Below are positions 8,724 through 37,490 of a stretch of 64,000 nucleotides of DNA, in pieces. Where the stretch lies: contig NZ_CP008852.1 in NCBI RefSeq assembly GCF_000725345.1, positions 2,447,693 through 2,511,692 of the forward strand, given 5' to 3'. The translations under genes were made by a program, and so were the position numbers. Within the stretch, counting starts at the first letter, position 1. Each line of letters starts with the position of its first letter. This DNA comes from Pelosinus sp. UFO1. GTDB taxonomy: Bacteria; Bacillota; Negativicutes; DSM-13327. The notes beneath the pieces are model-generated. The model saw nothing but the letters and a program-made list of their open reading frames with translations, had not been told where the DNA came from and did no database searches.

Positions 8724-10397
8724 CTACTCACCAAATAAAGCTTTTGATAGAGCTTTATAGGCATCATCATAATATCTTTTAGGAATTACTGTTACAAGGT
8801 ATCCATCTGTCCCAAGAACTGCCGCTCCATCTGGGGTGAAAAACAAATGTTTTCTTCCTCCCGCTTGTTCTAATGCCTTTCCATTTTGAACCCAAGAGTC
8901 AACCATTTCCGATGTAACTCCTCTTTCAGCCATTCTATCAGCTCCATGCTGAGTTTGTAGTGACCAATTTACTTTAGTTCCTGGGTTTTCTACAAGCACA
9001 CCAGCTTTTCCGAAATTATCTCCAATTTGCGCAAGTTTACTCGACCACTTACCTAAACCAGTTCCTCCTATTAAAAAGCCACCTGCTGTAGTCCAATCAG
9101 ATTCAAACTGATGTTTATCTACTGCTTCTTGAGTAACACCATTTACTGCTCTCGCATAAGAAATTGTCGTTGGACTAGATATATGGTCAACCAAATTCGC
9201 CCATGTTGCATTAACATCATAAGCATTAGCTGCAAAAGCTACATTCCAGTCATAAGCAACGTTTGTCTTCAAGAAGTTTTTAAAATCTTGACCAACAGTA
9301 CCGCCTTCCATATCAGTAAAATCATTAAAATGATAAGGAGAGTCAGACCCGTTCGCATTACCCCTACTACTGCTCCAATACTCCTTAATCAAATCTACAA
9401 GTTCTTCTTTTCCTGCACCATCATTTACAGCTTTAGATAGTTTATCTTTAAAGCGGACAATCTCATAATCATATAATGCATTATTCTTCGTACCGCTAGC
9501 TGCAGTTGATCCACCAGTTTGTGCATCTCCTCCAACTACTGCAGCAGCAGCAGCACCTATAATAGCGCTCGCCCATTGATGCATATCAGGATTATCTTTA
9601 AATTTGTCTTTTAGTTCTTTTTGAACCGCCTCATTTAATCCAGCACCAACAGCTCCTGATAAAGCATTTCCGCCACCCATATCAGCCATTACTGCTCCGA
9701 CAAAAGCATGTAGTGCTATCTTTTGAGGACTTCCTTCATCCCAACCATTGGCCTTGCTGATTATATGAATTTGTTCAAATGCTACTTCACCAAATACCTT
9801 AGCTAATTCCTGCTGTTCTTGAACAGTTTTCTTATCAAATATCTTGCCTAAGGCATTTAATGCCCCTTCTGGATCACGGCTAAGTTTCGATAAGTCTTGA
9901 GTTGGATTGCTACGTACTTCAATCGTACCAGGAGAAATAGCTGATTTGGTTGTGCTGTCTGCATCTCCTGATGCTTTTACCCCAATATTAGGAGTTAAAC
10001 CTTTTTCGTTTAATTTAGCGTCTTTTCTAGTATCAAGATTTACCCCTACACTACTTGCGCTGTACTCCGCCTTATTTTGTATATCAGAGTAAGTAAGAGT
10101 ATCTGTGCTAATCTTGTTTTTATCTGGAGTAGCGTCGCTGGAAATGACCGCACCTTTCAGGTCAGTATTCTTACTAACAGTGATATTAAAACCACCGTCA
10201 CCAGCATAGATGCCTGCTTGTTCTGTGACACTTGCGTAGGTAGAGTCAGTTTTGCCTTGGTTTACAGAACCAGTTGTACCGGCTTTAGGTCCTGTACTAA
10301 CTCCAATTCCACTGCTTTGATTCTTCGCTGCGTAGTCACCTGTATCCTGCTTGTTGGCTATATTGGCAGGTATCTGTGGCAGTCGAGTAAAGGTCAA
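8724..10397 (-). CDS. Orphan CdiA C-terminal toxin cassette (DUF4258-like nuclease end)
   Basis: The frame has 557 residues from a TTG in the leader repeat. Residues 1-150 are CdiA haemagglutinin-type sequence (KQDTGDYAAKNQSSGIG, AEYSASSVGVNLDTRKD). Residues 215-300 form the pre-toxin region, Ala/Gly rich, ending TKNNAL, probably the equivalent of the VENN motif. The C-terminal 75 residues (TQHGADRMAERGVTSEMVD, KHLFFTPDGAAVLGTDGY) resemble DUF4258/BECR-fold RNase toxins, with a conserved His and Arg. Full CdiA proteins have thousands of residues and need an export signal, which is missing here, so this is probably a silent reserve cassette. The immunity gene at 8478 follows directly. Confidence 0.75.
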   Translation of the reverse strand: MTFTRLPQIPANIANKQDTGDYAAKNQSSGIGVSTGPKAGTTGSVNQGKTDSTYASVTEQAGIYAGDGGFNITVSKNTDLKGAVISSDATPDKNKISTDTLTYSDIQNKAEYSASSVGVNLDTRKDAKLNEKGLTPNIGVKASGDADSTTKSAISPGTIEVRSNPTQDLSKLSRDPEGALNALGKIFDKKTVQEQQELAKVFGEVAFEQIHIISKANGWDEGSPQKIALHAFVGAVMADMGGGNALSGAVGAGLNEAVQKELKDKFKDNPDMHQWASAIIGAAAAAVVGGDAQTGGSTAASGTKNNALYDYEIVRFKDKLSKAVNDGAGKEELVDLIKEYWSSSRGNANGSDSPYHFNDFTDMEGGTVGQDFKNFLKTNVAYDWNVAFAANAYDVNATWANLVDHISSPTTISYARAVNGVTQEAVDKHQFESDWTTAGGFLIGGTGLGKWSSKLAQIGDNFGKAGVLVENPGTKVNWSLQTQHGADRMAERGVTSEMVDSWVQNGKALEQAGGRKHLFFTPDGAAVLGTDGYLVTVIPKRYYDDAYKALSKALFGE

Positions 10398-10524
10398 TGT
10401 CGTTTGTGTAATGCTTGTGAATAGTCGAAAGATTGCGTATAGGTATGTAATGAACGGTATTGGCTATAGCGTAGATCATTACGGGCTCTTTTAAAAGCAA
10501 CGGATATTCCCGTTAGTTTTTTAT
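10374..10524 (-). repeat. CDI-array leader repeat, copy B
   Basis: This is the same block as copy A, reading on the minus strand AACGGGAATATCCGTTGC, GAGCCCGTAATGATCTACGC, CATACCTATACGCAATCTTT and ACTGCCACAGATACCTG. Here the reading frame of the toxin ORF enters the leader, and its TTG start lies inside the repeat. Confidence 0.75.
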
Positions 10525-10542
10525 TTTATGTGCTAAAAAAAG

Positions 10543-10574
10543 AAGGTCAGCGGATTTTTACGTCCACTGACCTT
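10543..10574. terminator. Cassette-end hairpin
   Basis: AAGGTCAGCGGA...TCCACTGACCTT encloses TTTTTACG. It ends the cassette carrying the immunity gene at 10617. Confidence 0.7.
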
Positions 10575-10616
10575 GTCTTTCTTATTACCCATTATATTTT
10601 TCCGTAAACGTCCGCA

Positions 10617-10919
10617 TTAGATAATTTCTGCAAAATTTTCACATAATTTTTTTAATAATTTGTGGTTTTCTTTCTTTACAGCATATACATAATTCCAAAC
10701 AAAACTATCGGAACTATATACAAGTACAAATTCAAATTCACCATAACTTAACAAACATGCTTTGCCTAACTCATCTTCTGTTTCTTTAACAACTTTTACT
10801 CCTTTAATTTTTGCGAATTTTTCCAATATCAAATTGAAATCTTCTTTTTGCATCAACCCATCAAAGATCAGCTCTACATTTCCATTATCAAGCGATACTT
10901 CTGCGATTTTCAACTTCAT
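10617..10919 (-). CDS. Putative immunity protein (unrecognised family)
   Basis: The protein has 100 residues. It begins MKLKIAEVSLDNGNVELIFD and has an alternating alpha/beta pattern with no membrane segment. AGGAG lies just before the ATG. It follows a toxin-end fragment (10940-11110) by 20 bases and precedes a cassette-end hairpin, so by position it is the immunity partner of that fragment. I do not recognise the family. Confidence 0.6.
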   Translation of the reverse strand: MKLKIAEVSLDNGNVELIFDGLMQKEDFNLILEKFAKIKGVKVVKETEDELGKACLLSYGEFEFVLVYSSDSFVWNYVYAVKKENHKLLKKLCENFAEII

Positions 10920-10939
10920 AGTAATCTCCTTTATTTTAT

Positions 10940-11110
10940 CTACTCTATCCCAAGTGATTTATTTACGCTAGTTCTTGACCGTTGTGCTGCATTTATAATT
11001 TCATGATATAAAGCATCACCTTGAAATCCTTTTTCAGTATACTTTTGAGCAACTTGTTCCCACGTTAAATTAGGGTCAGTTTTGTTTAGAGATGCTGCAA
11101 GTTCTCTATC
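10940..11110 (-). pseudogene. Toxin C-terminal fragment
   Basis: An open frame without a start codon reads RELAASLNKTDPNLTWEQVA, then GFQGDALYHEIINAAQRSRT, and ends NKSLGIE with TAG at 10940-10942. It sits just before an immunity gene, as CdiA toxin ends do. The frame is cut off where the gene at 11111-11752 ends, so the rest of the toxin is lost. The toxin family is not recognised. Confidence 0.5.
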
Positions 11111-11752
11111 TCACGAGAAATATCCATTAACAACTTTCGTTAACTCATCGGAACCATTTTCTATATTTGTCAGGTAATTTATAAAAAGCTCATCTATCTC
11201 TATCTGCTTAAAGACACTTAGATATTTAAACGCAGACAACAAGGAACTACTTTTATTATAACTACTTAATTCTGTTGATGCATAATTAACAACATGATTT
11301 ACAAACCTATCACACTTGTATTTCATTAAAGCATTTAGAATAAAATCGACTTCGTCCTCTTTATTACTACAAAGAATATCTTGGATTTCTTCTTCTGTTA
11401 ACTCTTCTAGATAAAGAACTTCCTTAACGTGATTAAAATTTTTAATTGCTACGATTTCGTCGTTGTAAAAATCTTCCCAGAAAGAATTGTAACAAATTTC
11501 CATTGGCATAATCCAGTAGTTATTCTTAGTCTTTTGATTAAAAATCCAAGTTGAACTTAGTTTATCTGATACAATTTCAAATAAGCTCGCAGGGTAAGGA
11601 ACTATACTATTGTCGTCATTCTGTAAACGAAATTTAATATATTCTCCTGAAACAGATGAATTGTTGCTAAACTCCATTGCGAAAACAATATAACTTTTGT
11701 GTAACGTCAAATTAAGTTCCTTGCCATTTGAATCTATGTACTTAATTTTCAC
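11111..11752 (-). CDS. Putative immunity protein (unrecognised, 213 residues)
   Basis: This is a soluble acidic protein with an N-terminal beta-rich half (MKIKYIDSNGKELNLTLHKS, SGEYIKFRLQND) and a helical C-terminal half resembling a degenerate HEAT-like array (LTEEEIQDILCSNKEDEVDF and onward). The family is not recognised. It follows a CdiA homology box and leader, and no toxin sequence separates them. It runs into the toxin fragment at 10940. Its role as an immunity gene is inferred from position only. Confidence 0.6.
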   Translation of the reverse strand: MKIKYIDSNGKELNLTLHKSYIVFAMEFSNNSSVSGEYIKFRLQNDDNSIVPYPASLFEIVSDKLSSTWIFNQKTKNNYWIMPMEICYNSFWEDFYNDEIVAIKNFNHVKEVLYLEELTEEEIQDILCSNKEDEVDFILNALMKYKCDRFVNHVVNYASTELSSYNKSSSLLSAFKYLSVFKQIEIDELFINYLTNIENGSDELTKVVNGYFS

Positions 11753-11789
11753 CTAATCACCTCACTCCTAATGGTCTAAACGATAGTTT

Positions 11790-11926
11790 ATTGTGTCCGA
11801 TATAGTTTCACTAGCAAAGAACCAGTTACTCCACCATTAGATCCTGTATTAAATCCTAATCCACTGATTTGATTCTTCGTTGCGTAGTCATCTGTATCCT
11901 GCTTGCTTACTATGTTGAAAGAGATC
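11790..11926 (-). pseudogene. CdiA pre-toxin homology remnant
   Basis: This is a short decayed copy of the CdiA homology region, holding the box that encodes SKQDTDDYATKNQ (about 11868-11910) and the FNTGSNGGVTGSL-like stretch. It links leader copy C to the immunity gene at 11111. Confidence 0.6.
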
Positions 11927-12050
11927 TGTGACAGTCAAGCAAAGGTCAGTATCGGTTGTGTAATACTTGTGGATAGTCGAAAGATTGCGTATAGGTATGT
12001 AATGATCGTTATTGGCTGTAGCTAGCTTAGATCATTACGGGCTCTTTTTA
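11926..12050 (-). repeat. CDI-array leader repeat, copy C
   Basis: The block is recognisable by GAGCCCGTAATGATCTAAGC, CATACCTATACGCAATCTTT and GACTGTCACAGATC on the minus strand. It carries a small duplication (GCTAGCT near 12020) not seen in other copies. Confidence 0.7.
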
Positions 12051-12060
12051 AGGCCTAAAA

Positions 12061-12099
12061 CAAAGAGGTCAGCGGATTTTTGTCCGTTGACCTCTTTGT
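12061..12099. terminator. Cassette-end hairpin
   Basis: CAAAGAGGTCAGCGGA and TCCGTTGACCTCTTTG form about 15 pairs around a T-run. It ends the cassette of the gene at 12153. Confidence 0.75.
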
Positions 12100-12152
12100 T
12101 GATTGTTTATTTTTTTATCCCCTACCGTATCATTTTATCTAGTACAAATCTA

Positions 12153-12848
12153 CTAATTGTCCCTCCATTTATTGAGATTTAACTTTAAATTTGAAGCTGT
12201 ATATTCTATAAATTCTCTTATCTTTACTTTAATCATATCTGGTTGAGTCTTGGCTAATATTCGTAATTCTTCAATACTATTGTTTTTTTCTACCATATAA
12301 TCAAAATGTTGCGTACTTGCTTCAAGAAATGATGTTCTGTCCTTAAGAAATGCAAAAAATGTTTGATCGGCTAATTCAAATTCTTCAAAATATAAGTAAC
12401 TATACGCCAAGTATTCTGTTCGAATCGTAGGTGCTATCAAGTAAGGATTTCCAGGAGCCCAACTATTAACGAAGGAAATAATACCTTCGGGATGTCCGAC
12501 CTCTTCAAACCACGGCAATGAATCTGTTCTTAATTGTTCTAGAATTTGTTTAAACTCTTTTTCTAATTCCACTTCATCATCAACTAAACCCCATCCAGCT
12601 CGCCTTTCATTAATATGTCTCAGGCGAGCTCCAAAACCCAGATTAGGTCTCTCAAAAGGAATGTATAACGGTTGAATTACTACATTGCAATAAAAACCCC
12701 CTGGTGGAATTTCAAAGCAAATTATATGCAGTACGTCTTGCTTGACCCTAACTAAAAGGGTTGGCTTTAAAAATATGAACTTATTCTCTTCTGCAAATGA
12801 CTTTAGTTGTCTTTTTATCAGCTTCCGTATTTTTTGTCCATACGTCAC
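12153..12848 (-). CDS. DUF4304-like putative immunity protein
   Basis: The protein has 231 residues. The N-terminal 75 (LIKRQLKSFAEENKFIFLKP, TLLVRVKQDVLHIICFE, GGFYCNVVIQPLYIPF) fit the pattern of DUF4304-type domains, which are common beside polymorphic toxins. The rest is mixed alpha/beta. GAGGAAG precedes the ATG. It lies between a CdiA homology remnant and a cassette-end hairpin, with no toxin remaining. The family link is moderate. Confidence 0.6.
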   Translation of the reverse strand: MTYGQKIRKLIKRQLKSFAEENKFIFLKPTLLVRVKQDVLHIICFEIPPGGFYCNVVIQPLYIPFERPNLGFGARLRHINERRAGWGLVDDEVELEKEFKQILEQLRTDSLPWFEEVGHPEGIISFVNSWAPGNPYLIAPTIRTEYLAYSYLYFEEFELADQTFFAFLKDRTSFLEASTQHFDYMVEKNNSIEELRILAKTQPDMIKVKIREFIEYTASNLKLNLNKWRDN

Positions 12849-12879
12849 AGATTCTTCCTCCTAAAATTACGGTTTGATA

Positions 12880-13016
12880 CCAAATATCGGAGTATTTGGC
12901 CCAGCCGATCCTGTTTTACCCTAACTGAATGAACTAGTTAAGCCACCTTTAGGGCCTGTACTACTGCTTTGATTCTTCGTTGTGTAGTCATCTGTATCCT
13001 GCTTGCTTACTATGTA
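12880..13016 (-). pseudogene. CdiA pre-toxin homology remnant
   Basis: This is a decayed copy with the SKQDTDDYTTKNQ-type box at about 12968-13010. Most of the region between the box and the immunity gene is deleted. Confidence 0.6.
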
Positions 13017-13021
13017 GGCAG

Positions 13022-13165
13022 AGATCTGTGACAGTCGAGAAGGTCAGTATCGGTTATGTATGCTATGGTTGTCGTAGGCATGTAATGAACGGTATTGACT
13101 GTAGCGTAGATCCTTACGGGCTCTTTTAAAAGCTAACGGATATCCCCGTTAGTTTTTTATTTTAT
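13022..13165 (-). repeat. CDI-array leader repeat, copy D
   Basis: It contains the AACGGGGATATCCGTTAGC hairpin and GAGCCCGTAAGGATCTACGC. It is internally shortened in the TATACGCAATCTTTCGAC part compared with the other copies. Confidence 0.7.
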
Positions 13166-13177
13166 GTGCTAAAAAAA

Positions 13178-13213
13178 GAACGGTCAGCGGATTTTTACGT
13201 CCACTGACCTCGT
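13178..13213. terminator. Cassette-end hairpin
   Basis: CGGTCAGCGGA...TCCACTGACC, with A-rich and T-rich flanks, ends the toxin/immunity cassette at 13230-14400. Confidence 0.7.
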
Positions 13214-13229
13214 TTGTTCTCGAATAGCG

Positions 13230-13583
13230 TTATACTTTTGAAATAATAATTTGGTTGCAAGAAACTTCAACACTCATAGGTGGCATTAATATTTTGCAAT
13301 TTAATACTTCAAATTCATCAATAATACAATCTACAACTTCAATATCTTGAATGAAATACGGTATTTGGGGAATAGTCAGTTTCCTAAGCGGTTTTTTTCT
13401 ATCACTAACATCAGTTGTAAAATTGACCTTCGAGCAACCAGAAAACAATAGCTTTATATTATTATCTGCATCTTGAAATATAATTGTCACCTCATCACCA
13501 AAATACTCAGCAGTTATTTGTAATACTCTAGCATCCCAATAATGCAATCTTTCAATTTCCTCTTGTATCTGTCTTGCTTTCAA
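13230..13583 (-). CDS. Cognate immunity protein of the toxin at 13595
   Basis: The 117-residue soluble protein begins MKARQIQEEIERLHYWDARV and is followed by strand-rich sequence (VTIIFQDADNNIKLLFSGC, IPYFIQDIEVVDCIIDEFE). The LHYWDARV start resembles small immunity proteins of the Imm50-like kind, but the family is not certain. It begins 11 bases after the toxin stop, the tightest toxin/immunity pairing in the array after 8478/8724. It should protect the cell from the nuclease-like toxin upstream. Confidence 0.65.
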   Translation of the reverse strand: MKARQIQEEIERLHYWDARVLQITAEYFGDEVTIIFQDADNNIKLLFSGCSKVNFTTDVSDRKKPLRKLTIPQIPYFIQDIEVVDCIIDEFEVLNCKILMPPMSVEVSCNQIIISKV

Positions 13584-13594
13584 AATATTTCACC

Positions 13595-14466
13595 TCAATT
13601 CTGATATGGTATATGGCCATCTGAACTTTTCCTATCGACAATATTTAAATCAGCATCCAATGAATTACCCTTTTCATCGTAGAGATGGACATGATCATAA
13701 TTCGTAACTTTATCTGGAGGATCGATTCTCATACGAACGTTTCCATCAGCATCCCTAACATGCACAAAACCATTATTTTCAGTATACTTCCAGTCATTTG
13801 GTAATTTTTCAAGGATTTCACTTTTGGACATATTAGCAATTTCACTTGCATTAATCTTTCCTGCAAAAATTTTTTCAATTTCTCTGCCTAGTCGTACTGA
13901 TCCACGTTCATTTTTTACATTGCTACGTACTTCAATTGTTCCTTCAGCAATCGCTGATTTTGTTGTACTATCCGCATCTCCAGAAACCTTCACGCTAATG
14001 TTAGGTGTAAGCCCGGCATCTTTTTTCTCGGTGTCTTTTCTAGTGTCCAGGTTCACTCCACTGTTGCTTGCGCTGTACTCCGCCTTATTTTGAATATCAG
14101 AGTACGTAAGAGTACCTGTGCTAATCTTATTTTTATCAGGTGTAGCGTCGCTGGAAATGACCGCACCTTTCAGGTCAGTATTCTTACCAACAGTGATATC
14201 GAAACCGTCTTTGCCAGCATAGATTCCTGATTGTTCTGTGACACTTGCGTAGGTAGAATCTGTTTTCCCTTGGTTTATGGAACCAGTTGTGCCGCCTTTA
14301 GGTCCTGTACTAAATCCAATTCCACTGCTTTGATTCTTCGCGGTATAGTCATCTGTATCCTGCTTGCTGGATATATTAGCAGATCTGAGTCGGTTTCCGC
14401 TTGTAATGCTTGTGGGTTGAAGGATTGCGTTTAGGTATATAATGATCGGTATTGGCCGTAGCGTAG
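13595..14466 (-). CDS. Orphan CdiA C-terminal toxin cassette without a start codon
   Basis: The frame is open from just after a TGA near 14467 to 13595. It reads CdiA sequence (NISSKQDTDDYTAKNQ, GIGFSTGPKGGTTGSI, TYASVTEQSGIYAGKDGF) and then the toxin end. No ATG, GTG or TTG occurs upstream of a GTG at 14056, which lies inside conserved CdiA sequence, so the cassette has no credible start of its own. The toxin end (DWKYTENNGFVHVRDADG, RIDPPDKVTNYDHVHLYDE, DRKSSDGHIPY) resembles a small RNase-type polymorphic toxin with His residues. It would act only after recombination into a complete cdiA. Confidence 0.7.
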
Positions 14467-20866: not shown

Positions 20867-22447
20867 ATGCTAAACATTGCAGTGTACTGTCGGGTTTCAT
20901 CAGAAGACCAACAAGAGCGCGGTACTATAGAAAACCAAATCGAATTTGCAACAAAATACTGCGATCTTCATCAACTAAATATAGTTAAGTGGTATAAGGA
21001 TGACGGGATTTCTGGAACTCTCCCCTTTGAATCTCGTCCAGAAGCCTCCATAATGCTTCAAGATGCACAAGAAAAGAAATTCGATACTCTCCTATTCTAT
21101 CGCCTTGACCGCTTTGGCCGAAGTGCTAGGACTATCTTAAATGGTGTTCACACTTTGGAGCAATATGGCATAAAAATCAAGTCAATGACAGAACCCTTTG
21201 ATACAGGCGACCCTTCAGGTAGATTTCTTCTCACTATCCTTGCCGGTGTTGCTGATTTAGAACGTTCCAATATTTTAGACCGTCTTTGGCATGGCACAAA
21301 CCGTGCTGCACGTAATGGCAAATGGCTTGGTGGTATTTGTCCATATGGGTACCGAGTTGATGATGAAGGATTCCTTACTGTTAGTGACACTCCCCTCCCT
21401 GGCTTTGACATGTCAGAGGCTGATGTTGTGCAAATGATTTACAGGCTAACAACTGAGCAGCATATGAGTACCATCAAAATCGCTGATTATCTTAATGCCT
21501 TAGGAATTCCACCTAAATATGCAATAGAGGGTCGTAAGATCGCTAAAGGCAAACGAAAAGAAAATACATCTGGGCATTGGCTTCCAGGTCGTGTCAGAAA
21601 TATGATTGTACAGGAAACTTATAAAGGGATCCATTTTTTCGGTAAACGTTCTAAAAAAGTAAGAGAAGTAATCAAACGCGAAGTACCTGCTATTGTAGAT
21701 GAAGATAGTTGGGATAAGGCTCAACTTGTATTAAAAGACAATCAACTTGAAGCTGTACGCTTTACTAAGTATAGTTACTTACTTAAGTCTCTTGTAAAAT
21801 GCTCACTATGTGGTCTAAACTTCTCTGGGACTGGTTATTCAGGCGTAAATGGACAACGTACTGCCTATTATGTATGTAATGGAAAAACATCCTATAGAGG
21901 CAAGTACATGGGAAAATGCGTAGCCAAAAATGTAGCTGCCAACTGGTTAGATGAAAAGGTTTGGAATGATTGCGTTAATTTCATCAATAATCCTGGACAA
22001 TTATTAACTGACCTATCACCAGATGAACAAGAACTATTGTTAATTACTTCTTCCCTCTCTCAAAAAGATACAGAGAAGCAATCTATCCTCGACCTATATA
22101 GAAAGCAACTTATAACCAGTAAAGATGTGGAAGATCAGCTCTCTAAAATTGCTATTGAGAGATCGGCTCTTGAATACCGGCAGAAAGAATTAAAAAATGC
22201 CCTCCTTACGACTAATGATGAAGATTATCGTAAAAAGGACGCTCTTATGCTCTTAGGTGATTTAAAAGAAAAACTAACAGGTCAAATTACATATGAAACG
22301 AAACGGAATATTATTAAGCAACTCGTACGTGAGGTAGTTGTTTGCACGACACATTCTGATAATAGGGATGCTCCTGAAGTAAAAGTTCACATCAAGTTTG
22401 TTTTTCCCCAGATAGTTCCATGCACGGACAAGGATTCATTGCCGTAA
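20867..22447 (+). CDS. Large serine recombinase
   Basis: The 526-residue protein has a resolvase catalytic domain (residues 1-150, YCRVSSEDQ with the nucleophilic Ser, then [16 protein letters not shown]), a Recombinase domain (about 160-280), a zinc-ribbon ([10 protein letters not shown]... YYVCNGKT... KCVAKN) and a C-terminal coiled coil (about 390-480). This is the architecture of phage and conjugative-element integrases. AAGGAGG lies upstream of the ATG. Its last codons overlap a comM fragment on the other strand, so the attachment site reaches into its 3' end. It probably moved the adjacent CDI/immunity segment or a larger element now deleted. Confidence 0.93.
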
Positions 22448-22667
22448 GAAGCATTAGCTTTGCTGGATAAGAAAAAGAAGCATTAACTCTCGAAATTGTA
22501 ACTTGTCCATCTTCTAAGGGGTGGCGTAATACTTCTAAAACAGCTCTTGGAAATTCAGCTAACTCATCTAAAAATAACACACCATGATGGCTCAATGTAA
22601 CTTCGCCGGGCCGAGGGATACGTCCACCACCTACCATGCTAGCAGCAGAAATAGTGTGATGAGGACT
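22422..22667 (-). pseudogene. comM: Internal fragment of comM (YifB, Mg-chelatase-like ATPase)
   Basis: The translation [67 protein letters not shown] is the AAA+ core of ComM, including the Walker B FLDE. Homology starts abruptly at about 22667 and ends abruptly at CPC (22422), where a glycine should follow. Only about 80 of some 500 residues remain, so it is dead. The 3' break coincides with the end of the serine recombinase, as expected if comM was the integration target. Confidence 0.8.
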
Positions 22668-22746
22668 GTGAAATAAATGTAGGCAAAAACCTTTAATGGT
22701 AAAGACGCACCGGAAATTATCCTTCATCATGAGCTCGTAGCTTAGA

Positions 22747-22828: not shown

Positions 22829-24274
22829 TCAAGATTCTTCAGGGTAAATCATATCCGCAGGGGCTACATTGAAACGTATTGCCCATGGATAATATATGAG
22901 AGCAGTTGCGATTAATCCAACAATCCAGGAAATATCAGTACCTCCTAGCATCTTAGTAATGGGGCCTGTGTACATGGCTTGAGCTAGAAAGGGGATTTGT
23001 ATCAGTACACCGATAAAATAGGAGATAATGGCAGGTACGTTCCATTTGCCGTAACGTCCATTAGGATCATATAAGGCCGGCACATCAATTTTTTCCTTTG
23101 AGATCCAATAAAAATCAACGAGATTAATAACACTCCACGGTGTGAAAACCATGAGCAGTACCAAGACGAAGTTCTTGAAAAGATTGAGAAAGTCTTTGCT
23201 GGCAAAGATAGCAATAAAGACCGACGCTATAATCATTCCCAGAATGAACAAAGTCCGTTGAGTTGTCGTAGCACTCTTTTTACCATTAAGAGCTGTAGTA
23301 ATTGTCAGCATGGACATGAAAGAACCATAGGCATTAAGCGTATTGACTGTTAATTTGCCGATGACTATGACCATGTAGATCAAGGCGGAAACAATTCCGA
23401 TTCCACCTAGTTCACCTAAATAACCCACCTGATTTTTCAGGAAACTACCGCCGTACCCCGCAAGGCTGGCGGCGCTAATGATGACGCCGAGAGTCATCGC
23501 CCATTGGGTGCCAATGACGCTTCCCATAAAGGTATTCCAGAATGTGACCGACTGAGGAGTGCTGCGTGGCAGATAACGGCTGTAGTCTGCCACGTAAGGA
23601 CCGAAGGTGAGTTGCCAGCCTGCTGAGAGGGAAACGGCCAACAAGAAGGTTGTCAATTCGAAAGGTTTAACTCCAAATAAAGAAGCTACAGGAAATTTGG
23701 TGAATGCCATGACCGTAAGATAGGTGAAGCCGAGGATACCCGTAATGGTAGCGATCCTACCTAGAGCATGGATATATTTGTACCCAAGAATCGACAGCAA
23801 CGCTGTGAGGCTTCCGAAGATTATTATACCTACCGCTGGAGTTTCGACGCCAAGGATGCCGTTTACAGCCTGCCCGGAAAGTACTGTGCCGGTTGAAGCG
23901 AAACCGAGGTACATAATTACAACTAAAACAAGGGGTATAATAGCACCGATAACGCCAAACTGAGCGCGACTGGAGATCATCTGTGGTAAACCCAAGCGCG
24001 GTCCTTGCGCAGAATGAAGGGCCATTACAGCACCTCCCATGATATTACCGATGAGTAGTCCGATGAAAGCCCAAAGAGCGTCAGCTCCAAAGACTACAGC
24101 CAAGGCGCCGTCCACCACAGAAGTAATCTGCATATTTGCGCCGAACCAGAGTGTGAACTGACTAAATGGAGTGCCATGTCTTTCATGATCAGGAATCATG
24201 TCAATAGAACGTATTTCAATCAAACTTTCTTTTGCTTGGTCCACCATTTCCACTCCTTTTTTATAAACTATCAA
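22829..24274 (-). CDS. NCS1-family nucleobase permease (CodB-like)
   Basis: The 481-residue membrane protein has about 12 helices. TPFSQFTLWFGANMQITSVV near residue 37, FGPYVADYSRYLPR (about 226) and VDFYWISKEKID (about 385) are typical of cytosine/purine/allantoin permeases of the nucleobase:cation symporter-1 family. It imports a nucleobase or related ring compound; the exact substrate cannot be read. The frame starts at 24274; an internal ATG nine codons later (MVDQAKES) is better placed after GGAG and is probably the true start. It stands alone with its own terminator. Confidence 0.88.
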   Translation of the reverse strand: MIVYKKGVEMVDQAKESLIEIRSIDMIPDHERHGTPFSQFTLWFGANMQITSVVDGALAVVFGADALWAFIGLLIGNIMGGAVMALHSAQGPRLGLPQMISSRAQFGVIGAIIPLVLVVIMYLGFASTGTVLSGQAVNGILGVETPAVGIIIFGSLTALLSILGYKYIHALGRIATITGILGFTYLTVMAFTKFPVASLFGVKPFELTTFLLAVSLSAGWQLTFGPYVADYSRYLPRSTPQSVTFWNTFMGSVIGTQWAMTLGVIISAASLAGYGGSFLKNQVGYLGELGGIGIVSALIYMVIVIGKLTVNTLNAYGSFMSMLTITTALNGKKSATTTQRTLFILGMIIASVFIAIFASKDFLNLFKNFVLVLLMVFTPWSVINLVDFYWISKEKIDVPALYDPNGRYGKWNVPAIISYFIGVLIQIPFLAQAMYTGPITKMLGGTDISWIVGLIATALIYYPWAIRFNVAPADMIYPEES

Positions 24275-24315
24275 TCATTACAATACAATATGTAAAAAAT
24301 ATGATTACGATAACA

Positions 24316-24420
24316 AAAAAAACACAGCTCTGCTCCATTAATGGATAAGCTGTGTCTTTTTTAGTTTTTCACCGGTTCTGCGTATCAGGTCAAACGGCGA
24401 ATTTTTTTACGATAAATAGC
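24316..24420. repeat. Dispersed repeat, copy 3
   Basis: AAACACAGC-CCATTAATGG-GCTGTGTTTT-type hairpin (24318-24362), then TTTTTCACCGGTTCTGCGTA, TCAGGTCAAACGGCGAATTT. It matches 4234-4350 and the second half matches 27448-27502. It may terminate the leuA-like gene on the minus strand. Confidence 0.6.
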
Positions 24421-24471
24421 TCAATTGAACGAACAAGTCAAGACTGACTATTGCAGTCAGCATTACTATGC

Positions 24472-26460
24472 CTACTTCTTGTTGCGAAACTGAACTGGCG
24501 TCATTCCATATTTTTTCTTAAATAATCGATTGAAATGTTCCACGTTCTGATAACCTACGCTATCAGCAATCTTTTCAACTGTCATACTTCCATTATTCAA
24601 AAGAGTACAAGCCTTTTTCATCCGTACATTTCTAACGATTTCACCAAATGTTCCCCCAGATTTTTCTTTGATATATTTCGATAGATAGGGAACCGACAGA
24701 TGCATCTGTTTTGAAAGCTCCTCTAACGTAACAGTCAAGTAATTCGTTTGGATGTAATTTATGATTTCATTAATTCTTTCATCCCTGCATTTATCTTCCG
24801 CCTGTATTTCGTCTAATTGATTGACAGCTACTACAAGGGCATTAATCGAAGATGTAATAATGTCGTCATCAATCCCAACACCCCAGAATAATTTGTTGTT
24901 GCTGCTAACTCCAACATAGGAAACCGCCTTGGAGGATGAACCCTTTGAAAGTGCATGTTCTTCATAAATGGCTAATTCATAATGGATGTCAAAATATTGT
25001 TTAATGGCATTGCTGACAGCATCCAATCGCCCATTTCCATTTCCTACAATCGTTCTAACCTTTCCGTTATGATTTATGATAACTTGTGCTATAATGCCAT
25101 CTATTTGTTTAAAACGAAATTCTTCTATGTGGAAATATGGAGTATTATTCACATATTTGTTTTCAAATATGTGATATACCCACTGCGGTGATAATTCTTT
25201 ATGTTCCCTATCAGAAACACCTTTAACTGTGTAACCCACATCTTCTTTCATCTTAGCAGGAATGGACAGTCCATAATTTCCTTCCAGTATGTAACCAATA
25301 CCACCTTTCCCTGACTGACTATTAATTCTGATGACATCTGAATCATATTCCCTCCCAACATCCTTAGGGTCAATAGGAAGGTACGGAACTGACCATGTAT
25401 CAGTTTTCTTTTCTGTTCTGTAATTCATCCCCTTAGCAATTGCATCTTGATGGGACCCAGAGAAAGCGGTAAATACTAGTTCGCCTGCATATGGTTGGCG
25501 AACATGCACTTGCATTCGAGTTAAATTTTCATATTTCTGGCATATTTCTGGCATATTGCTAAAGTCAAGTTTAGGATCAACACCATGTGAATACAGGTTC
25601 ATTGCCAATGTAATAATATCAACATTTCCTGTTCTCTCTCCGTTTCCAAATAAGGTTCCTTCAATTCGATCAGCGCCCGCAAGCATTCCCAGTTCGGCAT
25701 CACAAACACCGCAGCCCCTATCATTGTGAGGATGCAAACACAAAATAACAGAATCCCTGTATTTCAAATTCTTACTCATAAACTCCACTTGACTTGCAAA
25801 TACGTGGGGCATTGCATTTTCTACCGTTGTTGGCAGATTAATAATTGCTTTTTTATCAGGAGTGGGTTTCCATACATCAAGTACCGCATTACATATTTCT
25901 AGTGCATAATCCACTTCTGTTCCAGGAAAACTCTCTGGGCTGTACTGAAATGAAAAATTACCAGTTGTCTCTTCTGCCAATTTCTTTAATAATTCTGCTC
26001 CACCAACAGCAATCTGCTTGATTTCTTCCTTACTCTTTCTAAACACCTGCTCCCTCTGAGCAACAGATGTTGAATTATACAAATGAATTACAGCGTGGGG
26101 TGCGCCCTTAACAGCTTCAAATGTTTTTTTTATAATATGTTCCCGGGCTTGTGTTAGTACTTGAATGGTTACATCTTCAGGTATCATGTTTCTCTCTATT
26201 AATGCCCTTAAGAAATTATATTCTGTGTCTGATGCCGCTGGGAAACCCACCTCAATTTCCTTGAACCCAATGTCCACCAGCATCTGAAAAAAATCTATTT
26301 TTTCCTCCAAGCTCATTGGTTCGATAAGTGCTTGATTTCCGTCTCTTAAATCAACGCTGCACCAGATTGGGGGCTTATCGATATGATCTTTCCTAACCCA
26401 GTCATAAGATACTTGGGGTGGCATAAAATATGCCCTTTCATATTTTTCAAAATTCTTCAT
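24472..26460 (-). CDS. leuA: 2-isopropylmalate synthase fused to a C-terminal AraC-type DNA-binding domain
   Basis: The protein has 662 residues. Residues 1-420 are the catalytic part ([56 protein letters not shown]), and about 430-550 form the LeuA regulatory dimer domain, which together match the long-type LeuA of about 550 residues. It condenses acetyl-CoA with 2-oxoisovalerate, the first step of leucine synthesis. Residues 560-662 are a complete AraC/XylS double helix-turn-helix ([50 protein letters not shown]). One uninterrupted frame encodes both. A leucine T-box leader precedes it. The fusion suggests a leucine-responsive enzyme that also binds DNA. Confidence 0.9.
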
Positions 26461-26484
26461 AATATCCTCCTTCTTTCACCGCAT

Positions 26485-26760
26485 GCACATAAAAAAATCT
26501 TCCGTCCTATAATCCATAACAACGAATTATAGAGACGAAAGACAAAGCTCTCGCGGTACCACTCTATTTCATGATCAACATACGCTCATCGGCACTACTA
26601 ATGCCTATCCCGATAACGGAGGACTTCCGTCATGACCTACTATATTTCAGCCAGAAGCTCCAAGGCGAGTTCACCACATTTCTTATACTGTTTCGCATCA
26701 TCCAACAGCTTTCTGCAATCAATTTGTGGATACTATTCCTTTTCATTGCCTTTCATATGG
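26485..26760 (-). promoter_or_regulatory. T-box leader, leucine specifier, upstream of leuA
   Basis: The minus strand holds the T-box sequence GAGTGGTACCGCGAGAGC (26547-26564), a Stem I with AGTATCC, GATGATGCGAAACAG and the specifier region GGTGAACTCGCC, in which CTC (26667-26669) is a leucine codon. An intrinsic terminator follows (CGTCTCTATAATTC...GATTATAGGACG, then a T-run at 26491-26497). Uncharged tRNA-Leu should favour read-through into leuA. Confidence 0.88.
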
Positions 26761-26829
26761 AATAAATTATTAAATTATCCAATAATGTAATTCACTTCTA
26801 ATCCCTAATTGGATAGTACCATATATCTT

Positions 26830-27236
26830 CCACATTGCGTAGTGATAAATTTAATCAGTTTTCTTGATCTTATTTAATTATTTGTGCTAATCATAAAATA
26901 AAGCGAAAGAAGGGCAAGTTTTTTTTAAGAATGTTAAGCTTGGAAGAACGGCTTGACTTATTATAAATATTTCGTTTTTTAATATCTCTCATCTAGTAAT
27001 AAATCAAATTCCAGAATAACTCAATCATGACTCAGACAGAGCGCCGTCTAGAATGGGGTCATAAGTTAGTACTTCTGATACTATTGGGAGCGAAAATGAA
27101 TATAAAACCGTCCAGGCACATCTTTTTCTTAATTTTTCGCCGTGTTGCAGTATAAGATAGGTGTACGCCCTGTTTTCTGGTTAATCTTACATCGTTTTTT
27201 AGGAAGATAATAGGTGCAAACTATTCTTGAGGAGGT
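26830..27236. other. Intergenic region between leuA leader and a small gene
   Basis: No coding sequence was found. The left part should hold the leuA promoter (A/T-rich, TTGAT...TAAT-like elements) and the right part the promoter of the small gene at 27247. Nothing else is recognised. Confidence 0.3.
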
Positions 27237-29514: not shown

Positions 29515-29709
29515 TCAACAGTCACAAGAGTCACAAGAGTCACAACAGTCATGATGCCAATCATGATGACACTTGGGGCACTTATGCCAATCTTTGTGAC
29601 ATTTATGATGGCATTTAGGGCACTCCCACCCATTGCACTCGCATTCACACTCATGCCAATCATGATGACACTTATGGCACTTTTTACAATCACAATCAAA
29701 ATCGTTCAT
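29515..29709 (-). CDS. His/Cys-rich 64-residue protein
   Basis: The start was placed at the ATG at 29709, preceded by AGAGGTGAAGAA. By direct count the protein has 17 Cys and 12 His among 64 residues, in repeated blocks (CHHDWHECECECNGWECPKC, HKCPKCHHDWHHDCC, DSCDSCDC). The spacing suggests several zinc or other metal sites or heavy cross-linking. Firmicute spore coats contain similar proteins. The 3' end of the gene carries a 9-base tandem repeat (GTCACAAGA type). No family was recognised. Confidence 0.7.
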   Translation of the reverse strand: MNDFDCDCKKCHKCHHDWHECECECNGWECPKCHHKCHKDWHKCPKCHHDWHHDCCDSCDSCDC

Positions 29710-29797
29710 TTCTTCACCTCTTTTACAAGTTATTCTATATATAATATGTAAATTAAGTGAAAAAGGCTCCAACTATTTGGTCATAATAAAAACCTCC

Positions 29798-34094: not shown

Positions 34095-37000
34095 CTATTG
34101 AATTGCAACCGTTAACTTCAATGGTTCACTATTAATTAATACATCTGTATACTCTCTTACTTCATCAAACACAATTTCCACCGCCAGGGTTTCACTCATA
34201 ATATAGTCCTTGTATTGAATCACAACGTCTTGAAGACAGACATTTCCCGTCATATAGATTTTAATCTTATCCATTACTTCAAAAGAACTATCTTTTCTCA
34301 TATTTTGGATTTTGCTAATGATTTCTCTAGCATATCCTTCAACTTTCAGACTTTCAGAGATATGGGTATCAAGAACAACACCAACATCACCTTCTCCAGC
34401 AAAGGCGAAACCTTCGAGTCCATTCATCGTTACCAACAAATTGGTAGAGTTAAACTCTATGAGAGTACCATCAATTTCTACTGTAATGGCCTCGTTATTT
34501 GAAATTTTCAACGCTAACGCCATCTGATCCATCTCCGAAATAGCTTTTCTGATGGCTGGTATAAACTTACCATGAGTTTTCCCTAACACTGGCGAATTGG
34601 GTTTTACGATATAACTTACATAATCAGACATATTAGCGTTCACTTCTACGCATTTTATATTTAGTTCTTCTTTAATAATATCAATATAATAATCAGGTAG
34701 TGTCTTAGTACTTAGTAACATTTTGGAAAGAGGCTGCCTATTTTTAATATTGGCCACATTTCTCGCACTTCTTCCTAGACCACAAATCTTGTAAGTTAGC
34801 TCCATTTCTTTTTCCAGCTGCCTATCGACAAGCTTTTCATCATATTCAGGCCACCTGCACAGATGCACACTCTCCGGTGCTTTTACATCACGACCTACTA
34901 CAAGGTTTTGATAAATCTCTTCTGTTATAAAAGGAACGAAAGGAGCAGCCACGATTACTAGATTTTTCAGCACAGTGTGTAAGGTAAGATACGCATCGAT
35001 CTTATCATCTGTCATCTCCATAACCCAATATCTGGTTCTATTTCTCCTCACATACCAGTTTGACAACTCATCAGTAAATTCTCCGATAAGCTCTGCTGCT
35101 CCAGTTATATCATAAGCATCCAGATCTTCCCCAACCTTATAAATCATGGTATTAAGCTTAGAGATAATCCACTTATCCATGACATGGCTACTTTGTCTCC
35201 CATGATACGTAGTCGGATCAAACTGATCGATCTGTGCATACAACACGTAGAAAGAATATATATTCCATAAAGTATTTAAAAATTTACGTTGGGCTTCAAT
35301 CACCGCATCTTCATAAAACCTGGATGGCAGCCAAGGAGCACTAGCAGTATAAAAATACCATCGTAAGGCATCGGCTCCTTGATTCTCCAGAACCGTAAAA
35401 GGATTTAAGACATTCCCTTTATGCTTTGACATTTTAATACCGTTTTTATCGAGCACATGCCCAAGAACGATACAATTTTCAAAAGGACTCTTATCAAATA
35501 TGGCAGTAGATATAGCGAGAAGGGTGTAAAACCATCCTCTTGTCTGATCAACCGCTTCCGATATAAACTGGGCAGGAAAGTTTTTCTCAAACAACTCCTT
35601 ATTCTCAAAAGGATAATGATATTGAGCAAAGGGCATGGAGCCGGAATCATACCAGCAATCAATTACCTCGCTAACTCTTTGCATTTTTTTTACACACTTA
35701 GGACATTGTAGTGATACCTTATCAATGTAGGGCTTGTGAAGCTCAATATCTCCCGGCACTTGGATTGCCTTTTCCTTTAGTTCGGCAAGGCTTCCGATGC
35801 ATTCCCTATGCCCGCATTCGCATTCCCAAATTGGTAAAGGGGTGCCCCAATAACGTTCCCGACTTAGTCCCCAATCAATCACATTATCCAGGAAATTACC
35901 AAATCGACCTTTCTTAATATTATCAGGATACCAATTGATTTTATCATTATTTTCTAAGAGATTGTCTCGTAAGGAGGACATCTTTACGAACCAAGAATCC
36001 CTCGGATAATATAAAAGAGGTGTGTCACAGCGCCAGCAGAATGGGTACGAATGAAGATATTTCTCTGTTTTATAAAGGATATTTTTTTCCTTCATAACTT
36101 CAATGATTTTTTCATCTGCTTTTTTAACAAACATCCCCTGCCAGGGGATGACCTCTTTCACAAAATTCCCCTGCACATCAACCAAATTTATCAACGGCAG
36201 ATCATATTTCTGCCCTACCCGATTATCATCTTCTCCATAAGCAGGTGCTATGTGAACCACACCTGAACCATCACTAAGAGTTACAAAATCACCATGAACA
36301 ATATAATAGGCTTTTTTCTCAGGAGTGACAAAAGAGAACATTGGTTCGTACTCCTGCTCAAGAAGCTCTTCTCCTTTAAAGGCTCTTACTACCTCATACT
36401 CACCATCAATCCTGCTAAGCAAATCTTGGGCAATGATCAAATGCTCTTCCTGATTGATGATTTCCACATAATCATATTTTCGATTCACTGCAAGAGCTAC
36501 ATTACTTGGCAAGGTCCATGGTGTTGTCGTCCATACTAGAATATAGGTATCTTTACCCTTTAGTTTAAATTTAACGTAAGCAGAGCTATCCTTCACATCT
36601 TTATAGCCTTGGGCAACCTCATGAGATGATAGAGCGGTCCCGCAGCGCGGACAGTAAGGAACAATTTTATGACCTTTATATAACAAGTCTTTATCCCAGA
36701 GCTGTTTCAATGACCACCATACCGATTCAATATATTCATTTTGATAGGTAACATAAGGATTATCCATATCAATCCAGTAAGCTACCCGTTCGGACATATC
36801 CTTCCACTGGGTTGCATAGGTAAATACGCTATCTTTGCACTTTTTTATAAAGTTTTCCACACCATATTTTTCAATTTGCGGTTTTCCAGATATACCAAGA
36901 GCTTTCTCTACCTCAAGTTCAACAGGCAGACCGTGCGTATCCCAACCCGCTTTGCGTAAAACATGATATCCTTTCATAACTTTATAACGAGGGATAAGAT

Positions 37001-37196
37001 CTTTAATCACTCGAGTAACGACATGACCAATATGAGGTGCACCATTGGCTGTAGGAGGGCCGTCGTAAAAGGTAAAATATTCACTACCTTCATTCATTTG
37101 AAAATTTCTTTTTATAATATCTTTCTCTTTCCATTGTTCAAGAACGGATTTTTCCATTGCTACAAAATTATTCTTGGAATCAACTTTTTTATACAT
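34095..37196 (-). CDS. ileS: Isoleucyl-tRNA synthetase, long (IleS2-type) form
   Basis: The 1033-residue protein attaches isoleucine to tRNA-Ile. The HIGH motif is in [16 protein letters not shown] and the KMSKS motif in [14 protein letters not shown]. The editing domain and anticodon-binding region are present. The [12 protein letters not shown] text and the length over 1000 residues fit the eukaryote-like IleS2 form, which in other bacteria tolerates mupirocin, and not the type of about 930 residues. Cys pairs (CPRCG, CWRCD, CECGH) may bind zinc. A T-box leader with an Ile specifier lies upstream. Whether a second ileS exists cannot be seen here. Confidence 0.96.
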
Positions 37197-37219: not shown

Positions 37220-37490
37220 AGCCTTCACCATTCTATCCCTTCACTAAAAATAAAAAAACTTCATCCTGTCCAGGACGAAGTTTTACATTCGTTATACCAC
37301 CTTTAACAACCATTCAGGTACTAGCATACCTTATCCTTTAACGCAGAAATACGGATTGACTTACTCTAATTTCAGCCATCAGCTCTCAGGTGATTTTCTT
37401 CAGATTATCATCATAGGTTCTCAGCAATCCCTACTCTCTGTGTATGTAAAATCATGAATACTCTTCCCGATCATCGCTTTTTAAATACTT
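37220..37490 (-). promoter_or_regulatory. T-box leader, isoleucine specifier, upstream of ileS
   Basis: The minus strand holds the T-box sequence AAAGGTGGTATAACGAATG (37287-37303), AGAGAGTAGGGATTGCTGAG in Stem I, and the specifier region GAAAATCACCTGAGAGC, where ATC (37392-37394) is an isoleucine codon. A terminator AAACTTCGTCCTGGACAGGA-TGAAGTTTTTTT (37253-37284) sits just before the gene. Uncharged tRNA-Ile should raise expression. Confidence 0.88.

Follow-up and report, generated by a model that had tools for sequence, protein, structure and literature searches.

The 64,000 nucleotides of Pelosinus sp. UFO1 that were analysed (the window) contained a gene in which a complete 2-isopropylmalate synthase (IPMS; LeuA) was continued in frame by an AraC-type DNA-binding domain. 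From sequence comparison, its product is best read (probability about 0.73) as a bifunctional trigger enzyme that would bind its own promoter in a manner coupled to leucine occupancy or substrate state, probably as an activator at low leucine. A candidate operator, new here and absent from the preliminary description of this locus, accompanied the fusion across genomes. The fusion setup is common to many gut bacteria and to some distant relatives.

The fusion gene, its conservation and its distribution

The gene occupied 24472..26460 on the minus strand (no strand had been given before) and formed a single open reading frame of 662 codons, with an ATG start and without an internal stop. Five Pfam domains, each exceeding its curated cut-off, were recognised in the 662-aa product. 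The catalytic HMGL-like domain (residues 32-306; 25543..26367, minus; 5.5e-68) was followed by IPMS_D2 (residues 327-393; 25282..25482, minus; 3.6e-34) and by LeuA_dimer, the allosteric regulatory domain (residues 424-549; 24814..25191, minus; 1.6e-24 and predicted structure). The AraC-type double helix-turn-helix (residues 561-660; 24481..24780, minus), supported by Pfam, helix conservation and predicted structure, included HTH_18 (residues 582-660; 3.1e-20) and HTH_AraC (residues 624-660; 6.1e-13). HMGL-like, IPMS_D2 and LeuA_dimer are together the domains of a type 2 LeuA, and the NCBIfam model of that type (PRK03739) covered residues 5-548 with 807 bits (cut-off 455); leuA_yeast, an equivalog model, scored 668, under its cut-off of 697. 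The preliminary description had a complete LeuA with its leucine-binding regulatory domain running uninterrupted into an AraC double helix-turn-helix, and proposed a domain search for HMGL-like, LeuA_dimer and HTH_18; the single frame and the three domains, all above cut-off, bore this out.

The expected metal and catalytic motifs were present in the protein, with the roles that we take LeuA motifs to have, and R39, D40, H243, H245 and H337 were invariant in the 53 fused proteins of alignment A1. HTH_18 was found in 53/53 members of this alignment, which had been picked as fused. An AlphaFold2 model from a 53-row alignment of fused proteins (mean pLDDT 84, pTM 0.61) showed strands and helices alternating as in LeuA and, at residues 561-660, seven helices resembling an AraC domain, the domains being named by eye. 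The catalytic, linker and leucine-binding domains of Mycobacterium tuberculosis alpha-IPMS (PDB 1SR9, 3FIG) aligned with the fusion (residues 26-519, 521-548), but that enzyme showed no DNA-binding domain in the alignment. Among the matches listed at E 1e-5, no solved sequence (0/25) covered both parts of the fusion in its best stretch.

Mean majority-residue frequency among fused proteins was 0.86 in the catalytic domain, 0.72 in the regulatory domain, 0.41 in the linker and 0.75 in HTH_18, and was 0.84 and 0.88 in helices 590-601 and 640-651, which we take, by the AraC fold, to be the recognition helices. Pooled dN/dS was 0.029 in the catalytic domain, 0.056 in the regulatory domain, 0.076 in the linker and 0.027 in the helix-turn-helix (15 pairs, several with common members and many saturated at synonymous sites). 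By these estimates, selection on the DNA-binding domain is as strong as on the catalytic domain (dN/dS about 0.03). A decayed domain, or the degenerate DNA-contact helices that had been named as possible counter-evidence, was ruled out by helix conservation on a par with the catalytic domain and by the low dN/dS.

A frameshift or stop at the junction, also named as possible counter-evidence, was absent in the gene itself. In the relatives search, the full-length fusion lay in one frame in 7/120 genomes, own genome included; the match was limited to residues 1-351 in G005, and at E 1e-60 no match was obtained in G002 and G004, both from the genus of the window and with a completeness rating of 100%. 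On genome contigs, the junction was in frame in all 80 loci kept (best 80 of 368 relatives; L098 matched from residue 31 onward only), which came from Pelosinus, Sporomusa and many Lachnospiraceae. The identical frame in many genomes ruled out an assembly artefact or junction frameshift. Among the 299 Lachnospiraceae genomes sampled, at least 68 carried the fusion (a lower bound, among the matches listed; LeuA2 match in 270/299), and a sample of 391 genomes from the class contained it in 13 (LeuA2 match in 134/391). LeuA2 was unfused, without a DNA-binding domain, in many relatives.

Two Lachnospiraceae loci (L175, L179) had a frameshift at the junction; directly after leuA, the next frame carried an intact helix-turn-helix. 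The L179 frameshift sat at an A8 run, and a sequencing error, a real split or a programmed frameshift are each possible for both. As unfused counter-examples, L175 (G188) and L179 (G205) were rejected because of the next-frame helix-turn-helix together with an operator or diverged operator, and L176 (G290) because the gene reached the contig end; all three were counted as fused in later tallies. At L169, the downstream sequence contained a stretch with weak resemblance to AraC (30% identity).

A FastTree tree of 153 LeuA parts needed 5 changes between fused and unfused, 3 of them forced by starred branches, so that the fusions would essentially be one family with few losses or regains. Four Pelosinus/Sporomusa rows nested among Lachnospiraceae with moderate support, which suggests that the fusion was transferred into Negativicutes together with its operator.

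A candidate operator at the fused leuA promoter

Reading of the regions upstream of fused genes, in loci with and without T-boxes, brought out a shared block of 28 bp (ATCAA-N6-TGATTAAA-N4-HCACT) just upstream of the extended -10 of the fused gene. In the window, the candidate operator ATCAAGAAAACTGATTAAATTTATCACT (26841..26868, minus) was the whole genome's sole zero-mismatch match to this pattern. The extended -10 element TATGGTACTAT (26813..26823, minus) began 17 bp past the operator, with the hexamer TACTAT at 26813-26818, 22 bp past the operator, and a -35 was not recognisable. Across fused loci, TATGnTAnnAT stood at a fixed distance downstream of the operator (columns 46-56) and the -35 consensus was absent. 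A standard promoter scan of 24200-27000, which requires both hexamers, returned 10 promoter-like sites (10.7 in shuffles), the proposed promoter not being among them.

Up to 3 mismatches to the operator pattern were found in 96/110 fused and 0/40 unfused upstream regions of 900 nt. In the fused set (duplicates and regions below 150 nt removed, otherwise not dereplicated), 64 regions had 0 mismatches, 16 had 1, 9 had 2, 7 had 3, 10 had 4, 2 had 5 and 2 had 6; the 40 unfused regions had 6-8. The minimum in 3000 block shuffles was 3 mismatches, reached by 8, and on the opposite strand fused regions had at least 3 (5/110 at 3) and unfused regions at least 5. A weight matrix placed 95/106 dereplicated fused loci, and 0/47 unfused ones, above the 99.9th percentile of 459 shuffles; it had been trained on 59 fused loci, all of them within the 95, and 36 of the 47 held-out fused loci passed. 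One fused row (L076) was removed from this set for its short upstream, and the 11/106 fused loci without an operator above threshold had diverged sites, a short upstream (L098) or nothing similar.

Identity between the window's upstream region and 91 distant fused loci was 76% in the operator and 65% in the -10, compared with 28-34% in three flanking stretches (27% expected from composition alone). Upstream, the conserved operator columns ran on into TTAAAA, which yields the direct repeat TTAAAWWNATCA at a step of 22-23 bp. Inverted ATCA/TGAT boxes were also held by the operator, and repeat correlations (0.65 direct, 0.73 inverted) were compatible with either arrangement.

The operator was absent in 9/9 unfused rows that lay inside the fused half of the tree. 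Starred, well-supported branches provided only 3 independent contrasts, in which the operator was as expected in 2.8/3 on average (p = 0.25). Operators were of the TTTATCACT type at 53 loci and of the TTTAATCAT type at 17; another 22 were unclassified, and 11 scored under the threshold. The first predicted recognition helix starts at residue 590, which was K in 48/53 TTTATCACT-type loci and E, T or A in 14/17 TTTAATCAT-type loci; residue 610 was K or R in 52/53 of the former and T, Q, A or I in 17/17 of the latter. The window's own protein had V590 and R610, and a locus of another clade (L144) combined the TTTAATCAT operator type with T610 and with K590 kept. Because the association lay mostly in one clade, and because positions 550, 582 and 575, outside the recognition helices, differed between operator types about as strongly, it is on its own a weak indication of direct reading.

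Across the 299 Lachnospiraceae genomes, the pattern with one further base relaxed gave 44 matches at up to 1 mismatch, 28 of them directly upstream of fused leuA (including 24/24 zero-mismatch ones); the 16 one-mismatch matches off leuA equalled the 16 of a reversed control pattern. A leuA operator match at up to 1 mismatch was present in 28/71 fusion genomes and missing in 43/71 (the 68 plus G290, G188 and G205, with split and contig-end copies included). Besides its own promoter, the window's genome had 4 two-mismatch matches, compared with 10 control matches. A wider regulon was rejected, since matches off leuA were no commoner than those of the reversed pattern, both in the 299 genomes and in the own genome.

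Nine of the 16 off-leuA sites were inspected by eye, and only that of G343 preceded a leucine gene. Upstream of leuC-leuD in this genome, the operator and TGCTATAAT stood exactly at the columns of the leuA promoter (L231; operator 941-968, leuC-leuD 1234-2994); the operator at its fused leuA was diverged (L219). The leuC upstream region exceeded the shuffle maximum in 1/30 fusion genomes (G343), and in 0/30 loci from 29 non-fusion genomes, a 30th having no match. The enzyme had been proposed to act on promoters directly: the strong co-occurrence of operator and domain makes such action probable at its own promoter, and the leuCD site points the same way in G343.

T-box leader, second half-site and leucine-pathway genes

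A leucine T-box leader with specifier CUC preceded the fused gene at 26528..26755 (minus; Rfam RF00230, 123 bits against 93), and CTC (leucine) came next after GAA in its specifier loop. CTC and CTG are both leucine codons; one or the other was found by regular expression in 36 of 41 distinct fused T-box leaders (8 alongside other triplets), and none in 5. By pattern, a T-box was present in 25/103 dereplicated fused loci and in 20/47 unfused ones, and in 40 fused loci Rfam and the pattern returned the identical 7 T-boxes before leuA. Mutual exclusion of T-box and fusion was rejected on these counts, phylogenetic pairs being without a clear trend. T-boxes act on RNA after initiation, and the window locus shares leucine T-box control of leuA through its CUC leader, but most fused loci showed no T-box. 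Two layers of leucine control, as first suggested for this gene, fit the present locus but are not the rule for the fusion, of which a T-box is no constant partner. T-boxes before leuA have been described (PMC2494555). A second T-box of the window lay before an ileS-like gene (34095-37196) at 37268-37483, minus, with specifier ATC by eye and none by regular expression. The terminator scan of 24200-27000 gave 1 terminator-like site (1.5 in shuffles), with no T-box terminator among them, and Rfam on 24200-24500 gave only a chance-level match.

Downstream of the operator, a second half-site ([AG]CAA-N4..7-TTGA[TC]), similar to the first half of the operator, was found in 30/71 operator-bearing, T-box-less fused loci; measured from where the first site begins, it lay at 72-78 bp in 29 of them and at 65 bp in L199. 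With the transcription start taken as 7 bases after the -10, it would lie at about +10 to +27. Among T-box loci, the pattern occurred in 1/24, directly after the operator. A spacing of about 75 bp approximates seven helical turns and would fit looping or a block of transcription.

The own genome has two IPMS types, since an unfused LeuA1 of 522 aa was present beside the fusion, directly after an ilvC-like gene (L002 871-3441, minus; C1:4509855-4511420 of the own genome). At E 1e-70, LeuA1 was found in 5/30 fusion genomes searched, every one Negativicutes, and was missing from 23/23 Lachnospiraceae fusion genomes and from the Pelosinus relatives G001 and G007 (the latter of 85% completeness). 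A second LeuA2 match was seen in 2/23 Lachnospiraceae fusion genomes (G141, G235; E 1e-100, top candidates per genome scored). The fusion was the only IPMS detected in 21/23 Lachnospiraceae genomes checked, and the fused enzyme must therefore work there if leucine is made; this count uses the E 1e-70 search, a threshold of E 1e-20 missing LeuA1 (4.4e-20 for the own LeuA1). Within the flanking sequence retrieved for 80 fusion loci, at most 6 kb on each side, no relatives of leuC or ilvC were found, in a search repeated at E 1e-10 with the fusion as positive control recovered in 80/80, and the flanks thus gave no operon evidence for the fusion.

Proposed mechanism, alternatives and related systems

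The LeuA part would act as a dimeric, catalytically active 2-isopropylmalate synthase, with leucine bound by its C-terminal domain. The AraC domain very probably binds the candidate operator, within a site of about 38 bp upstream of its own extended -10 that would correspond to a class II activator by the position rule for that class. Leucine occupancy of the enzyme, or its substrate state, would be relayed to the DNA-binding domain, leucine in LeuA_dimer altering the grip of the attached AraC domains on the tandem boxes, and one protein would tune the committed step at two levels, activity and transcription. The operator position and the missing -35 favour activation at low leucine; activation is somewhat favoured over pure repression, and the own promoter would most likely be activated when leucine is low. 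In a T-box-less lineage, the second half-site about 75 bp downstream would probably add repression, and in other lineages, the window included, the leucine T-box would add attenuation control. It is reasonably probable that the allosteric domain for leucine also serves the fused transcription factor as its effector domain, in a cassette that moved between Bacillota classes and took in leuCD in at least one genome. Leucine is likely to be the signal, in view of the intact LeuA_dimer and of mycobacterial members of the family, which leucine inhibits by an allosteric conformational change via this regulatory domain (PMC11057210).

Promoter-proximal motifs are, as is generally known, often read in trans, and the operator could be the site of another regulator encoded elsewhere, the AraC domain having a different DNA target or none. 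Such a regulator is improbable, given that the motif goes with the fusion and is absent at unfused leuA of related genomes, and that fusion and operator were both kept in Pelosinus/Sporomusa, which belong to another class and whose protein nests among Lachnospiraceae. The operator variant, moreover, tracks helix-turn-helix residues, mostly along one clade, and the two copies with a frameshifted junction retain an intact next-frame helix-turn-helix with the operator or a diverged one. The view of the DNA-binding domain as a passive remnant, or as contributing only to protein stability or oligomerisation, is hardly credible in the face of its dN/dS, its conserved predicted recognition helices and the conserved operator, even if many relatives have a LeuA2 without such a domain.

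Simple end-product control, with the fusion as a self-repressor and leucine as co-repressor, is a rather unlikely but more serious alternative. The conserved main site is placed as for a class II activator, ahead of a -10 that lacks a recognisable -35, 41/71 T-box-less loci have no second site, and the sole match in a T-box locus adjoins the operator; self-repression would on the other hand account for the 30/71 loci with a second half-site, where bound protein would block transcription, and PutA represses the put genes (PMC8249747).

As a trigger enzyme bound to its own promoter, the fusion would combine features of several known systems. It shares the C-terminal double helix-turn-helix with AraC and YesN-type regulators, and its candidate operator, like AraC-family sites, adjoins the -35 position and has a direct-repeat register of 22-23 bp. 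Effector domains of the AraC family are usually cupin or receiver domains; that of the fusion would be a complete biosynthetic enzyme. Escherichia coli PutA is catabolic (proline), represses without proline and has a ribbon-helix-helix as its DNA-binding domain, whereas the fusion is biosynthetic, of a feedback-inhibited family and with an AraC-type domain. To our knowledge, trigger enzymes are few. PutA, a single-target trigger regulator of putA/putP, resembles the fusion in being a metabolic enzyme that carries a DNA-binding domain of its own, in controlling its own gene (predicted for the fusion) and in having few targets (PMC8249747). The five E. coli trigger enzymes named in the same paper (BirA, NadR, PepA, PutA, PyrH; PMC8249747) differ from LeuA. 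No description of a LeuA-AraC fusion was recognised by title or start of abstract among the matches listed, subscription journals being mostly outside their scope, and a literature search for AraC half-sites gave nothing; by term search, "AraC" was absent from the main text of a gut amino-acid pathway reconstruction (PMC9026213).

If the trigger-enzyme reading is correct, many Lachnospiraceae have an enzyme of a feedback-inhibited family whose allosteric site is coupled directly to a DNA-binding domain, and the idea can be tested by way of the predicted 28-bp operator. Lineages with and without T-boxes, and with one or two sites, would form a natural series for the replacement between protein- and RNA-based control. 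A switch made of one protein, responsive to leucine and with a known operator, would in addition be useful as a sensor part.

Elsewhere in the window, 29515-29772 (minus) encoded a peptide of 85 residues with an extremely high content of Cys and His (no Pfam match at 0.001). Fragments like the C-terminal parts of large haemagglutinin-type secreted proteins, with small open reading frames of unknown kind between them, lay at 8724-14056 (minus), with a weak DUF637 match, below cut-off, at 8724-10397. A large serine recombinase (Resolvase, Recombinase, Zn_ribbon_recom; 20867-22447, plus) adjoined an open reading frame (22392-22730, minus) that presumably resembles a piece of a comM/yifB-type gene, and the two together possibly mark an integration site.
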